In this document: one piece after another, positions 48,709 to 53,523 of the stretch
How positions within the stretch are numbered: position 1 is the first letter of the stretch
Layout: every line of letters starts with the position of its first letter
Assembly: GCF_030295425.1 (NCBI RefSeq)
Contig: NZ_AP027081.1
Coordinates: 3,331,001-3,395,000 of the forward strand
Direction: 5' to 3'
DNA length: 64,000 nt
From: Mesoterricola sediminis
Lineage (GTDB): Bacteria > Acidobacteriota > Holophagae > Holophagales > Holophagaceae
Translations under genes and position numbers: made by a program
Notes under the pieces: model-generated
What the model saw: only the letters and a program-made list of their open reading frames with translations
The model's database searches: none
Told to the model about the DNA's origin: nothing

Positions 48709-49926
48709 CTAGCGCTGCCGCTTCCGCTGCATCGCGGCGATCTCGGAGACCCCGAGGATCGCCCTGTCGATGTGCTCCTCGGTGTTGAAGGGGCCGATGC
48801 CGAAGCGGACGGCGCCGTGGAGCTTGTCCGTGCCCAGGTGCTCGTGGACCATGGGCGTGCAGTGGAGGCCGGTGCGGCAGGCGATGTTGTAGTCCACGTC
48901 GAGCATCGTGCCGGTGTCGGCGGCCTCGAGGCCGTCCACGTTGAAGGTCAGCACGCTGATGCGGGGGAGGCCGCAGTCCTCCTGGCAGTAGAGGGTCACG
49001 CCCTCGATGGCCGCCAGGCCGTTCCGGAGGCGCCGCCACAGGGCCATCTCGTGGCCGTGGATGGCGTCCAGGCCGTGGCTCATGACCCACTTCACGCCCG
49101 CGTTCAGGCCGGCGACGCCGGGCAGGTTGGGCGTGCCGTACTCCATGCGCCAGGGGTACTCGTCCAAGTGGTGGCGCTGGGCGCTGCGCACGCCGGTGCC
49201 GCCCGCGCGGGTGTGGCGGACCTCGACGCCCTCGCGCACGTACATGCCGCCGATGCCCATGGGGCCCATGAGGCTCTTGTGGCCGGTGAAGCAGACGATG
49301 TCGGCGTTCAGTTCGTCCATCTTCACGGGAACCATGCCCGCGGTCTGGCTCACGTCCAGGATGAAGAGGATGCCGCGCTCGCGGCAGGCCCGGCCCACGG
49401 CCGCGGCGTCCTGGACGGTGCCGAGGACGTTGCTGCCGTGGTTCATGACCACCGCGCGGGTGTCCTTGCGGAGGCGGCCGATGATCTCGGCGGGATCCAC
49501 GTAGCCGCGCGCGTCGAAATCGACCCAGTCGACCTGGGTGCCGCGCTCGGAGAGGTGCCACAGGGGCCGCAGGGTCGCGTTGTGCTCGATGTGGGTGGAG
49601 ACGACGTGGTCGCCTTCGCCGATGGTCCCGAAGATCGCCAGGTTCAGCGCGTCGGTGGAGTTGTAGCCGAAGACCAGGCGATTGGGATCCGTCCCCCCGA
49701 AGAACTCCGTCATCAGCTTGCGGGTGTTGTCCAGCATGCTGCCGGCCTCGATGCACAGGTCGAACCCGCTGCGGCCCGGGTTCACGCCGTAGCTGCGGTA
49801 GAAGCTGTCCATGAAGGCGTACACCTCGGGGGGCTTGGGGAAGGACGTGGCCCCGTTGTCCAGGTACATCAGGCCGTTGGCCGGGGTCTCGGCCTGGAAG
49901 GGGGAAGGCGCTGCGGTGGTGGTCAT
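48709..49926 (-). CDS. Class-V aminotransferase, cysteine desulfurase family
   Basis: A 405-residue PLP enzyme. YLDNGATSFPKP at residue 21 is the N-terminal family motif; HIEHNATLRPLW near 115; Lys217 in FTGHKSLMGPMG binds PLP; Cys356 in CRTGLHCTP sits on the active-site loop, where SufS-type enzymes carry the persulfide Cys. Such enzymes take sulfur from cysteine as an enzyme-bound persulfide, giving alanine. Its start overlaps the stop of the DsrK-like gene (ATGA), so the sulfur donor is co-produced with a DsrC redox module. No iscU/sufU scaffold lies nearby, which argues against a simple Fe-S assembly role. Confidence 0.87.
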   Translation of the reverse strand: MTTTAAPSPFQAETPANGLMYLDNGATSFPKPPEVYAFMDSFYRSYGVNPGRSGFDLCIEAGSMLDNTRKLMTEFFGGTDPNRLVFGYNSTDALNLAIFGTIGEGDHVVSTHIEHNATLRPLWHLSERGTQVDWVDFDARGYVDPAEIIGRLRKDTRAVVMNHGSNVLGTVQDAAAVGRACRERGILFILDVSQTAGMVPVKMDELNADIVCFTGHKSLMGPMGIGGMYVREGVEVRHTRAGGTGVRSAQRHHLDEYPWRMEYGTPNLPGVAGLNAGVKWVMSHGLDAIHGHEMALWRRLRNGLAAIEGVTLYCQEDCGLPRISVLTFNVDGLEAADTGTMLDVDYNIACRTGLHCTPMVHEHLGTDKLHGAVRFGIGPFNTEEHIDRAILGVSEIAAMQRKRQR

Positions 49927-51218
49927 GGTTCACCTGCTGGAACGGGGTTGACGAGGGCGTCGGCGACGATTTCGGCCACCGACTTGATCTTGACGTTGAG
50001 TTTGTATTCCTTGTTCAGCTCCGAGAGCTGGTCGATGCAGTTGTGGCAGGGCGCGCAGAGGATCCGGGCGCCGGTGGCCTTCACCTGGCGGGCCTTGACG
50101 GAGCCGGAGCCGATGCGCCGCTCCTTGTAGGCCCCCATCGCGAGCTGGCCGCCGCCGCCGCCGCAGCAGAAGTTCTCCGTGCCGCAGGGCGCCATCTCGC
50201 GGAAGTCCTTGACGGCCTTGCGCAGGATGCGGCGCTGGGGCTCGCGGATGCCCCCGTGGCGGACGAGGTTGCAGGGGTCGTGCAGGGTCACGGGCTCGGA
50301 GACCCGTTCGGGGTCCAGCTGGATCCGGCCCTCGGCCACGTACTCATCCATCACCTCGAGGAAGCTGCGGACCTTGAACGGGAAGGTCCCGCCGAGCCAC
50401 TCGGGCCCCTCCCAGCGCGCGCTGGCGAAGCCGTGGCCGCACTCGCCGATGACGAGCGTTTCGCAGCCCAGGCGCTCCATGGCGTCCACGAGGGCCTGGG
50501 TGATGGTCCCGGCCTCCTTGTCGTTGCAGTTGAACAGGCCGTAGTTGGTGAGGTCCCAGCCCTCCGAGGCCAGGGTCCAGTCCTCGCCCGCCGCCCAGAA
50601 GACCTTGGCGCTGGCCTGGAGGGAGAGGGGGAAGAACTTGGGCTCCCGCGGATTCACCGTGAAGAGGATCCTGGCGCCCTGCTTGTCCACGGGCATGCGG
50701 GCGTTGGGATCGCCGGTCTCCGCCTGGAGTTCCTCCTCCAGCCAGGAGACGGTCTCCAGCCAATCCTCTCGGGTGATGCCCATGTTGTTGCCCGAGGCCA
50801 GGGCCAGGTCCACGATGCCCTGCAGGTCCCTGGGCACCTTGCCCATGGCCGTCAGGGCGGCGCGGGCGGCGCGGAAGGCCCGGGGCAGGTTGATGCCCAC
50901 CGTGCAGTTGATGGAGCAGCGGCCGCAGAGGGAGCATCGGCCGAAGACCGCGTCCACCAGATCGTCGGCGGCCTTCTCGTCGAGCCTGCGCCCCAGGCCC
51001 AGGAGGCCGAGGGGGGAGCAGTGGCGCCGGTACAGGTCGGCGACCCGCGCGAGCTTGTGGGCGGGGATGTTTTCGGGAACGGGATCGGCCAGGTAGTAGT
51101 GGCAGCTCTCCGCGCAGAGGCCGCAGCGGACGCAGGCCTCCAGGTGGCAGGCCCCCGCCTCCTGGAGCTTGTCCCGGAAGGCCTGGAGGCCGGTCTGGGT
51201 GTCGAGGACGGCGTCCAT
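49923..51218 (-). CDS. Iron-sulfur protein of the DsrK/HdrD type
   Basis: A 431-residue cytoplasmic-side protein from ATG 51218. Two [4Fe-4S] motifs are complete: Cys29, 32, 35, 39 (CVRCGLCAESC) and Cys95, 98, 101, 105 (CSLCGRCSINC). The C-terminal half has one good CCG domain: LHDPCNLVRHGG, CCGGGGGQLAMG and CAPCHNCID. The earlier CCG repeat is degenerate. In DsrK and heterodisulfide reductase HdrD/HdrB this domain holds the special [4Fe-4S] cluster that handles disulfide or trisulfide chemistry. The gene lies between the small membrane protein and the desulfurase and starts 2 bp from the membrane-protein stop. Confidence 0.87.
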   Translation of the reverse strand: MDAVLDTQTGLQAFRDKLQEAGACHLEACVRCGLCAESCHYYLADPVPENIPAHKLARVADLYRRHCSPLGLLGLGRRLDEKAADDLVDAVFGRCSLCGRCSINCTVGINLPRAFRAARAALTAMGKVPRDLQGIVDLALASGNNMGITREDWLETVSWLEEELQAETGDPNARMPVDKQGARILFTVNPREPKFFPLSLQASAKVFWAAGEDWTLASEGWDLTNYGLFNCNDKEAGTITQALVDAMERLGCETLVIGECGHGFASARWEGPEWLGGTFPFKVRSFLEVMDEYVAEGRIQLDPERVSEPVTLHDPCNLVRHGGIREPQRRILRKAVKDFREMAPCGTENFCCGGGGGQLAMGAYKERRIGSGSVKARQVKATGARILCAPCHNCIDQLSELNKEYKLNVKIKSVAEIVADALVNPVPAGEP

Positions 51219-51220
51219 GC

Positions 51221-51799
51221 TCACTCCTGGGGCGCGGTGGGCCACACGCCCCGGCGGCCGAAGAAGGCGCCCAGGTGGCGGCGGCTCAGGAAGAAGAAGA
51301 CGGCGTGCCGCAGCTTCCCGAGCGGGAGATAGACGAGGAGGGCGACGCAGGCCCAGGGCAGCGCGGCGGCGGCCCAGGGCAGCCAGGCCAGGCCCGCCAG
51401 GGCCGCGAAGGCGGTGGCGAGCCCATTGGAAAGGAAGTCGTCGGCGCGGGAGAGGCCGCGCAGATCGGCGACGGAGGCCCGCTTGACCAGCAGGCCCAGG
51501 CCCGCCAGGGCGCCGGCCAGGGCCACGACGGACAGGGCCCGGGCGGGCACCGCGAGCCGGGCGAAGGACGCGGCGATCCCCGCGTGGTAGAGGATCCCGG
51601 CCGCATAGGTGACCAGATGTCCGCGGACGCTCTCCTTGGCCCAGGGCATCAGGGCCCCGGTGAAGGCGTAGAAGACGCCCGCCCCGGCGCGGCCGGAGGC
51701 CGGCGCGTAGAGGGGACGCCGGCCGAGACGGCGGGCGGCGACGACCTGGGCCCCCAGGAGGAGGCCGCACCAGGCGGCGGCGAGGGCGAGGGGCAGCAT
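51221..51799 (-). CDS. Small integral membrane protein, DsrM/NarI-like candidate
   Basis: A 192-residue hydrophobic protein from ATG 51799, with about five membrane segments: residues 1-22, about 42-55, 60-80, 88-105 and 130-160. His residues lie in or near the segments (SVRGHLVTYAAG, ILYHAGIAASF, LGKLRHAVFFF, SRRHLG), spaced as could suit b-haem ligation in DsrM/NarI-type cytochromes. Its place directly before the DsrK-like gene makes a DsrMK-like quinone-linked pair likely. The haem role is inferred, as I see no unmistakable signature. Confidence 0.68.
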   Translation of the reverse strand: MLPLALAAAWCGLLLGAQVVAARRLGRRPLYAPASGRAGAGVFYAFTGALMPWAKESVRGHLVTYAAGILYHAGIAASFARLAVPARALSVVALAGALAGLGLLVKRASVADLRGLSRADDFLSNGLATAFAALAGLAWLPWAAAALPWACVALLVYLPLGKLRHAVFFFLSRRHLGAFFGRRGVWPTAPQE

Positions 51800-51803
51800 G
51801 GCG

Positions 51804-52124
51804 TTACACGCAGCCGTCGGGCTTGGGCAGGCCGGCGAGCTTACAGGCCCCGCGGGCCGGTCCGCTGGGGAAGAGATCGTAGATCTGCTTGAGGGGCACA
51901 CCCGAGCCCTTGCACACGACCCGCACCATGGGGGCGGTGCCGTTCTCGACGAAGTGGCCCCGGATGAACCGGATCACGGCCCAGTGCTGGTCGGTCAGTT
52001 CGGTGAGGCCCTCCTCCTGGGCCGCGAGGGCCTTGGCCAGCTCATCGTTCCAGATCTGGGGATCGACGAGGAACCCTTCCTCGTTCAGCTCCACCGCGGT
52101 GCCTTGGCATTGGACAGTCGGCAT
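51804..52124 (-). CDS. dsrC: DsrC, sulfur-carrier protein with both redox cysteines
   Basis: A 106-residue DsrC/TusE-family protein from ATG 52124, with GGAGGT upstream. VELNEEGFLVDPQIWNDELA and LTDQHWAVIRFIRGHF match the family core. The C-terminal arm reads ACKLAGLPKPDGCV, so Cys94 and the penultimate Cys105 are 11 apart, as in true DsrC and unlike TusE, which has only the last Cys. In sulfate reducers the two Cys hold sulfur from sulfite reduction as a trisulfide that DsrMKJOP reduces. It is the first gene of the operon, 4 bp from the membrane-protein gene; no dsrAB lies in the window. Confidence 0.9.
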   Translation of the reverse strand: MPTVQCQGTAVELNEEGFLVDPQIWNDELAKALAAQEEGLTELTDQHWAVIRFIRGHFVENGTAPMVRVVCKGSGVPLKQIYDLFPSGPARGACKLAGLPKPDGCV

Positions 52125-52167
52125 GGTCGTACCTCCGGCTTCCATTTTTGTGTGCATCTATCGCATG

Positions 52168-52184
52168 ATTGTACGTATGACAAT
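52168..52184. promoter_or_regulatory. Inverted-repeat operator between dsrC and the MocR gene
   Basis: ATTGT (52168-52172) and ACAAT (52180-52184) are a perfect inverted repeat with a 7-base spacer. On the minus strand TTGTCA (52183-52178), a 17-base spacer and TAGATG could be the dsrC promoter, so the repeat would cover its -35 and early spacer. It also overlaps the first codons of the MocR gene. It is the natural site for autoregulation and dsrC control. Confidence 0.5.
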
Positions 52185-53523
52185 GTGGGTACCTCAGATC
52201 CAGCAGTCCTCCCAACCGGCCTACCTGGCGATCGCCGACGCCATCGGGACCGCCATCCGCCTGGGCCAGCTCCGGCCGGGGGACCAGCTCCCCACCCACC
52301 GCCTCATGGCGGATCTCCTGGGCATCAACGTCAGCACCGTCACCCGGGCCTACCGGGAAGCCGCCCGGCGGCGCTACCTGGGCGGGGAAGTGGGCCGGGG
52401 CACGTACGTCCTGGGCGTCGCCTCCGAGGCCGCCCTCTTCGCCCTGCAGCGCAAGCCCATCGGCGGCGTCATCGATCTCTCCGCCAACGTGCCCCCCGTC
52501 TCGCCCCAGGACCCGGACCTGGCGGCCACGCTCGGTCGTATGGACGCCACGGACGCTGCCCGTCTGCTCCATTACCCCTCCGCCGGGGACGCCCTCGTGC
52601 ACCTGGACGCCGCCTCCCGCTGGCTGCGCCGCCGGGCCGTGGAGGCCGCCCCCGAGGACCTCCTGCCCTGCGCCGGGGCCCAGCACGCCATGGACACCGC
52701 CATCTCCCTCTTCCCCGAGGCCGAGGAGGTGGCCTGCGAGGCCCTGGTCTACCCCGGCCTCAAGGCGGCGGCCCGCCACTGGAAGCGGCGCCTCCAGTCC
52801 CTGCCCATGGACGGCGAGGGCATGCTCCCGTCGGCCCTCGAGGCCGCGTTCCGGGGCGGCGTCCGCCTCGCCGTGGTCTCCCCCACCCTGCACAACCCCA
52901 CCGCCAGCACCATGAGCCTGGAGCGCCGGCGCACCCTCGCGGCCATCGCGCGGAAGTGGGACGCGGTCCTCATCGAGGAGGACGTGTACGGCCTCCTCGA
53001 GCCGGGCGCGCCCCCCGCCCTGGCTTCCCTCGCCCCCGAGCGCGTGGTCTACCTGACCGGCCTGTCCAAGACCGTGGCCCCGGGCCTCCGCCTGGGCTAC
53101 CTGGCCTTCCCGCCGGGCATGCGCGCCCGGGCCCGGGAGGCCGAGCACCACACCACCTGGTACGTCTCGCCGCTCACCGCGGCCCTGGCCTCCCGCTGGA
53201 TGGAGGACGGCACCGCCTGGCGCCGCCTCCAGGCCCTCCGCCGCGAACTCGCGGCCCGCCACCGCCTCTGCCGGGGCGCCCTCGCGGGCATGCCCTGGAA
53301 GGGCTCCCCCCACTGCCCCCACCTGTGGATCCCCTCCCCCCGGGGCGGCTCCGCGGCCTTCGCCAAGCGCGCCGCGGAGGCCGGCGTCATCGTCGTCCCC
53401 GCGGACGTGTTCTCCACGGGCCGGCAGGCCCAGGACGGCGTGCGCCTCTCCCTGGGCGCCGCCACGGACCGGGCCGCCCTCGCCGAGGCCCTGTACCGCA
53501 TCGCGGCCCTGGCTCACTCGTAG
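52177..53523 (+). CDS. MocR-family regulator (GntR HTH fused to aminotransferase-like domain)
   Basis: About 448 residues from ATG 52177; ATGs at 52165 and 52183 are alternatives and none has a clear ribosome-binding site. A GntR winged HTH (residues about 10-75, with LRPGDQLPTHRLMADLLGIN and VSTVTRAYREAARRRYL) is followed by an aminotransferase class-I-like domain with HNPTAST and the PLP Lys in YLTGLSKTVAPGLRLGYL. MocR proteins sense PLP or PLP-linked amino compounds. It is divergent from the dsrC operon, which includes a PLP-dependent desulfurase, so it is probably the operon's regulator. Its end overlaps the convergent permease gene by 10 bp. Confidence 0.85.
   Translation: MTMWVPQIQQSSQPAYLAIADAIGTAIRLGQLRPGDQLPTHRLMADLLGINVSTVTRAYREAARRRYLGGEVGRGTYVLGVASEAALFALQRKPIGGVIDLSANVPPVSPQDPDLAATLGRMDATDAARLLHYPSAGDALVHLDAASRWLRRRAVEAAPEDLLPCAGAQHAMDTAISLFPEAEEVACEALVYPGLKAAARHWKRRLQSLPMDGEGMLPSALEAAFRGGVRLAVVSPTLHNPTASTMSLERRRTLAAIARKWDAVLIEEDVYGLLEPGAPPALASLAPERVVYLTGLSKTVAPGLRLGYLAFPPGMRARAREAEHHTTWYVSPLTAALASRWMEDGTAWRRLQALRRELAARHRLCRGALAGMPWKGSPHCPHLWIPSPRGGSAAFAKRAAEAGVIVVPADVFSTGRQAQDGVRLSLGAATDRAALAEALYRIAALAHS

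Follow-up and report, generated by a model that had tools for sequence, protein, structure and literature searches.

A conserved module joining two-cysteine DsrC to a cysteine desulfurase points to an undescribed route between cysteine sulfur and the respiratory chain

What does a two-cysteine DsrC do in a genome that has no DsrAB? The question is raised by a stretch of 64,000 nucleotides (the window) from the soil bacterium Mesoterricola sediminis (contig NZ_AP027081.1, positions 3,331,001 to 3,395,000), part of a closed 4.52-Mb genome of Holophagaceae type whose relatives were found to be Acidobacteriota/Holophagaceae. Read from the sequence, dsrC stands there at the head of a single minus-strand operon of four genes, followed by genes for a membrane protein (M), an iron-sulfur protein (K) and a cysteine desulfurase (Csd), with a divergent gene for a regulator of the MocR family. 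A first-pass annotation had proposed that cysteine sulfur is loaded on this DsrC and then reduced or oxidised through a DsrMK-like membrane pair; our analysis partly supports that interpretation, which was largely in the right direction. The operon consists of the following genes:

51804..52124, minus strand: DsrC, 106 amino acids, with Cys71, Cys94 and Cys105 and the C-terminus GACKLAGLPKPDGCV (PF04358, 1.8e-34).
51221..51799, minus strand: M, a NarI/HmcE-like membrane protein of 192 amino acids with five predicted helices of transmembrane length.
49923..51218, minus strand: K, an iron-sulfur protein of 431 amino acids in the DsrK/HmcF/TmcB superfamily, with two [4Fe-4S] motifs and a CCG domain.
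48709..49926, minus strand: Csd, a TIGR01977 cysteine desulfurase of 405 amino acids (by family profile score and invariant residues).

The junctions are as tight as first described: GGAGG precedes the dsrC start Met, 4 bp separate dsrC from M and 2 bp separate M from K, and K and csd overlap by 4 bp. Nor is the gene order peculiar to this strain. A search with K recovered 80 loci in about ten phyla, in many cases from uncultured bacteria, and an independent phylum scan added further Acidobacteriota loci; the set is also carried by a cultivated member of the Holophagaceae, Geothrix limicola (L031). DsrC, M, K and Csd occur together in most loci in at least four arrangements, with csd downstream on the same strand in 24 loci, convergent in 33 plus one and upstream in 3, and in 2 loci the order M-K-DsrC is followed by a convergent csd. 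The distance from K to csd ranges from -2 to 1859 bp (72 loci). Sixteen genomes have no full Csd at the K locus; ten of them carry a module-type Csd (680-724 bits) at some other place or on a separate contig, and the remaining six comprise three Chloroflexi and three draft genomes of 2.0-2.2 Mb. Because it recurs across phyla, the four-gene set is confirmed as a conserved module, beyond chance; no further conserved neighbour, and no acceptor gene, was found beyond the four genes across phyla.

In two of those ten genomes (G112 and G125) K and M lie away from dsrC, and csd is still adjacent and convergent to it, with gaps of about 40 bp and about 25 bp. Among 77 Holophagaceae genomes DsrC is present in 20, and a module-type Csd occurs in 19 of these 20 compared with 3 of the 57 that lack DsrC (Fisher p 5.8e-14, a statistic that ignores shared ancestry). 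The three genomes with Csd only are incomplete drafts, and in the sole DsrC-bearing genome without Csd (G065) the dsrC gene sits at a contig end.

DsrC, present as a single copy, is a genuine two-cysteine DsrC, its second cysteine lying 11 residues before the penultimate one; the Cys94 and Cys105 numbering of the first-pass annotation holds for the 106-residue protein with the chosen start. In the alignment of 85 relatives Cys105 is invariant, and Cys71 is kept in 84. PMC3397948 states that the second cysteine is confined to DsrAB-containing organisms and almost always replaced in others, a rule that the module breaks: Cys94 is kept in 80 of the 85 module DsrC sequences, and dsrA was found in 2 of the 49 genomes carrying module K. 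Those two are Chloroflexi with a K on an outgroup branch and a DsrC near dsrAB. Three Chloroflexi loci (L087, L092, L098) have a module-like M-K without Csd, and dsrAB with a canonical DsrC is present in two of the three genomes. Module DsrC proteins end in PKP[DE]GCV, compared with PKPTGCV or AKPTGCV in the DsrAB-linked DsrC examined, and Asp/Glu at position 103 so far appears a better marker of the module than Cys71. The latter was rejected as a module-only marker, being found also in DsrAB-linked DsrC of Chloroflexi (L127, L132) and in L159.

The genome itself bears out the absence of dsrAB. The search that the first-pass annotation had called for was run, and no NIR_SIR domain was found anywhere in the closed genome, which thus lacks sulfite reductases of that family, DsrAB included; this and the operon content support the earlier remark that a desulfurase occupies the place of sulfite reductase. 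Genes for DsrJ, DsrO and DsrP are not beside the operon (a reading of the locus only). Besides K, the CCG proteins of the genome include, by sequence reading, an LdhH/LutB-like protein, a reductase linked to electron transfer flavoprotein and one HdrB, with one further weak match. The single HdrB-type protein lies in an HdrC-HdrB-HdrA cluster followed by sulfhydrogenase beta/gamma-like (Flx-like) subunits at 4014004-4021450 (L117, L116, L120:5986-13450). An sHdr system, for which the first-pass annotation had also suggested a check, is unlikely, since it requires an HdrB1/HdrB2 pair along with HdrA, HdrC and lipoate proteins (the last of these were not searched). The Hdr-Flx-like cluster is present in 10 of 23 module-bearing Holophagaceae genomes compared with 2 of 54 others, so K and M cannot depend on it, and an obligate partnership with HdrABC-Flx was rejected.

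The membrane pair resembles DsrMK in its parts and differs from it in family. The description of K as carrying two [4Fe-4S] motifs and a CCG domain stands: a domain search gave Fer4_8 and CCG, all cluster cysteines are invariant across 39 sequences, and the predicted fold matches EtfD, LutA and HdrB. What did not hold is the DsrMK label. K scores 304 bits to HmcF, 274 to TmcB and 204.7 to DsrK (cut-offs 750, 735 and 400 bits) and so is closer to HmcF/TmcB than to DsrK and under all three cut-offs; M scores 27 bits to HmcE (cut-off 275) and 24 to TmcC (cut-off 240). Across 247 Acidobacteriota genomes true DsrK (574-741 bits) and module K (146-292 bits) are clearly apart, and in the K tree, built by a quick method with a midpoint root, true DsrK is set apart from the rest by a branch 3.16 changes per site long. 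On these sequence comparisons M and K are a sister family of DsrMK/HmcEF/TmcCB, not DsrMK. Scores of about 318-343 bits to DsrK, in the gap left by true DsrK and module K, mark a further K-like family, seen in G155 (L161) and G303 (L162); the second K copies of Acidobacteriota with true DsrK also belong to it. Cases of DsrMK lacking JOP are on record, and mention is made of a few assemblies with DsrMK in which DsrAB was not identified (PMC10504309).

M is, as first noted, a small membrane protein with histidines, two of which (His72 and His165) are invariant in the alignment and are likely ligands of one heme b. Its AlphaFold model has a confidence score (pLDDT) of 94. The best Foldseek matches were all NarI (prob 0.96, yet E 0.2), and a VIA comparison with NarI gave Z 10.3, modest for helical bundles; there was no DsrM-labelled chain among the matches listed, which excludes nothing.

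Csd scores 384.2 bits to TIGR01977, over the 377 cut-off, and its pyridoxal phosphate (PLP) lysine, Lys217 (GHK), and catalytic-loop Cys356 are invariant in the alignment. It shares this family with the EF2568-type, SelD-linked desulfurases; unlike them, the module copies form a separate high-scoring group on a module profile (about 630-724 bits, one truncated copy at 380, compared with at most 420 bits for other family members in the searched genomes). The genome also has separate SufS, IscS-type and SelD-linked desulfurases, identified by sequence reading, and the operon Csd is therefore not needed for those roles. The closest Csd paralogue in the genome is a second TIGR01977-type desulfurase at 4385470-4387500 (L108), directly before a selD-like gene.

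The module thus has the two-cysteine DsrC, membrane cytochrome and CCG iron-sulfur protein of the Dsr pathway of sulfate/sulfite reducers; unlike that pathway it has no sulfite reductase, includes a cysteine desulfurase, and has a K and M outside curated DsrK/DsrM. HmcEF and TmcCB of Desulfovibrio provide the best curated matches of M and K, but the module scores far under their cut-offs and its partners are DsrC and Csd.

These components suggest a dedicated cysteine-desulfuration redox relay running from Csd through DsrC to reduction by K and M, a reading to which we give a probability of about 0.48, close to even. We infer that Csd would take sulfur off cysteine, leaving alanine, and that DsrC would receive the persulfide on its penultimate Cys105. 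K, presumably docked on the membrane cytochrome M, would act as DsrC reductase: menaquinol electrons would pass via K/M to the DsrC-bound sulfane sulfur, held as a persulfide or as a trisulfide or disulfide with Cys94, releasing sulfide and resetting DsrC. The net reaction would be cysteine + quinol -> alanine + H2S + quinone. IscS and cysteine persulfurate the DsrC of A. vinosum exclusively at the penultimate cysteine (PMC3397948), and since Csd and DsrC also stay paired in genomes whose K and M lie elsewhere, the simplest explanation is direct transfer; co-occurrence, adjacency and the IscS precedent together strengthen this part of the pathway first proposed, in which the membrane pair had been taken for DsrMK. 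A persulfide needs two electrons to become sulfide, and besides Csd and DsrC the module has a membrane cytochrome and a CCG iron-sulfur protein, which favours reductive release of sulfide with electrons from quinol. A further point in favour is that the reaction of cysteine with H2 to alanine and H2S yields about -60 kJ/mol, with an E0' near -0.1 V, close to that of menaquinone. With potentials so close, electrons could conceivably flow either way, and M itself would conserve little energy.

Several points weigh against this relay. Menaquinol is only weakly reducing towards persulfides, diheme NarI has four histidines where M has two invariant ones, and the co-occurrence statistic carries the limit given with it. 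In an Aminicenantes clade (L045, L048, L057, L062, L064) Ala replaces DsrC Cys94, and Csd is kept, adjacent in L062 and L064 and at another place in the genome in L045, L048 and L057; disulfide or trisulfide formation would thus be dispensable there. (The L064 DsrC additionally has Val at position 71.) In sequence terms the clade shows a carrier cysteine, Cys105, that apparently matters more than its disulfide partner, Cys94. Sequence alone does not fix the direction of the electrons, and the linkage would also fit a biosynthetic destination for the sulfur.

Such a destination would make the module a relay like that of TusE, from Csd through DsrC to an acceptor such as a tRNA thiolase or a cofactor synthase, with K and M only re-reducing oxidised DsrC. 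There is precedent in TusE, a DsrC homologue in tRNA 2-thiouridine synthesis that is loaded from IscS through TusA and TusBCD (PMC3397948); the Ala94 clade retains the carrier cysteine and loses its partner, and the Csd family also has a SelD-linked member in the genome. The Tus relay, however, lacks the features that set the module apart, namely direct Csd-DsrC pairing, a membrane redox pair and, in most cases, the second DsrC cysteine. The genome has one DsrE-family protein, where TusBCD would need three, so a relay through TusBCD was rejected, and DsrC scores 69.8 bits to the TusE profile against a cut-off of 191. No acceptor gene is conserved beside the module across phyla, a presence in 20 of 77 Holophagaceae is oddly patchy for tRNA modification, and four genes with a membrane electron carrier would be heavy equipment for a mere reset. 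We therefore regard a biosynthetic relay as rather unlikely.

It is somewhat less probable again that the same proteins run oxidatively, K and M oxidising persulfurated or dithiol DsrC and passing electrons into menaquinone, with cysteine sulfur or thiols as donor. Menaquinone is a favourable acceptor for thiols, and the Flx-Hdr-like complex of this genome could reduce DsrC. Oxidation of DsrC-persulfide by DsrMKJOP into the quinone pool has been proposed for sulfide oxidation (PMC6018796). Against this, with no DsrAB nothing known would carry the trisulfide onward, the Csd product is already a sulfane in need of electrons, and more than half of the Holophagaceae with the module lack Hdr. Chance neighbours or the remnant of a decayed dsr operon are highly improbable: DsrC and DsrMK are classically tied to dsrAB, but the set persists in about ten phyla, its catalytic residues invariant and its gene order rearranged in several ways, and the K tree, in which module K does not derive from true DsrK, together with the lack of a sulfite reductase domain in the genome, led us to reject a remnant.

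Upstream of dsrC lie the elements that probably control the operon:

52186..53523, plus strand: a MocR/PdxR-like PLP-binding regulator with a GntR helix-turn-helix and an Aminotran_1_2 domain; its start is possibly at ~52183.
52168..52184, minus strand: the probable MocR operator in the dsrC-mocR intergenic region, a near-palindrome ATTGTCATACGTACAAT followed by a TGCACACAA half-site; a candidate MocR target sequence is ATTGTCATNCNNACAAT.

The domains and divergent position of the regulator agree with the MocR control first assigned; it scores 393 bits to the EhuR profile, under the 480 cut-off, and is thus termed MocR-like. The mocR gene is conserved beside dsrC in Holophagae-type loci. The motif ATTGTCATACGTACAAT has its sole match within the window here (0.01 expected, up to 2 mismatches allowed) and was found once in each of 23 fetched loci, some of them duplicate genomes, those compared all having it just upstream of dsrC. 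Unique and recurring, it supports one regulated operon, which the PLP-binding MocR probably activates when there is a surplus of an amino acid such as cysteine, its putative effector.

The module is real and widespread, and no description of it was found in a search of open-access papers for DsrC with a cysteine desulfurase, in keeping with the first suggestion of a possibly undescribed system. A second DsrC cysteine without DsrAB means that sulfite metabolism cannot be deduced from the presence of DsrC and DsrMK-like genes. As for function, we infer from the gene content that the module points to an undescribed route linking cysteine sulfur to the respiratory chain. It may be, tentatively and with odds a little under even, a widespread respiratory module for quinone-linked reduction of cysteine sulfur on DsrC, with cysteine serving as an electron sink for many anaerobes that have no dissimilatory sulfur pathway. 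If so, cysteine would join the substrates that feed or drain the quinone pool of Holophagae, Aminicenantes, Zixibacteria, Eisenbacteria and others, and the relay could contribute sulfide to soils and sediments.

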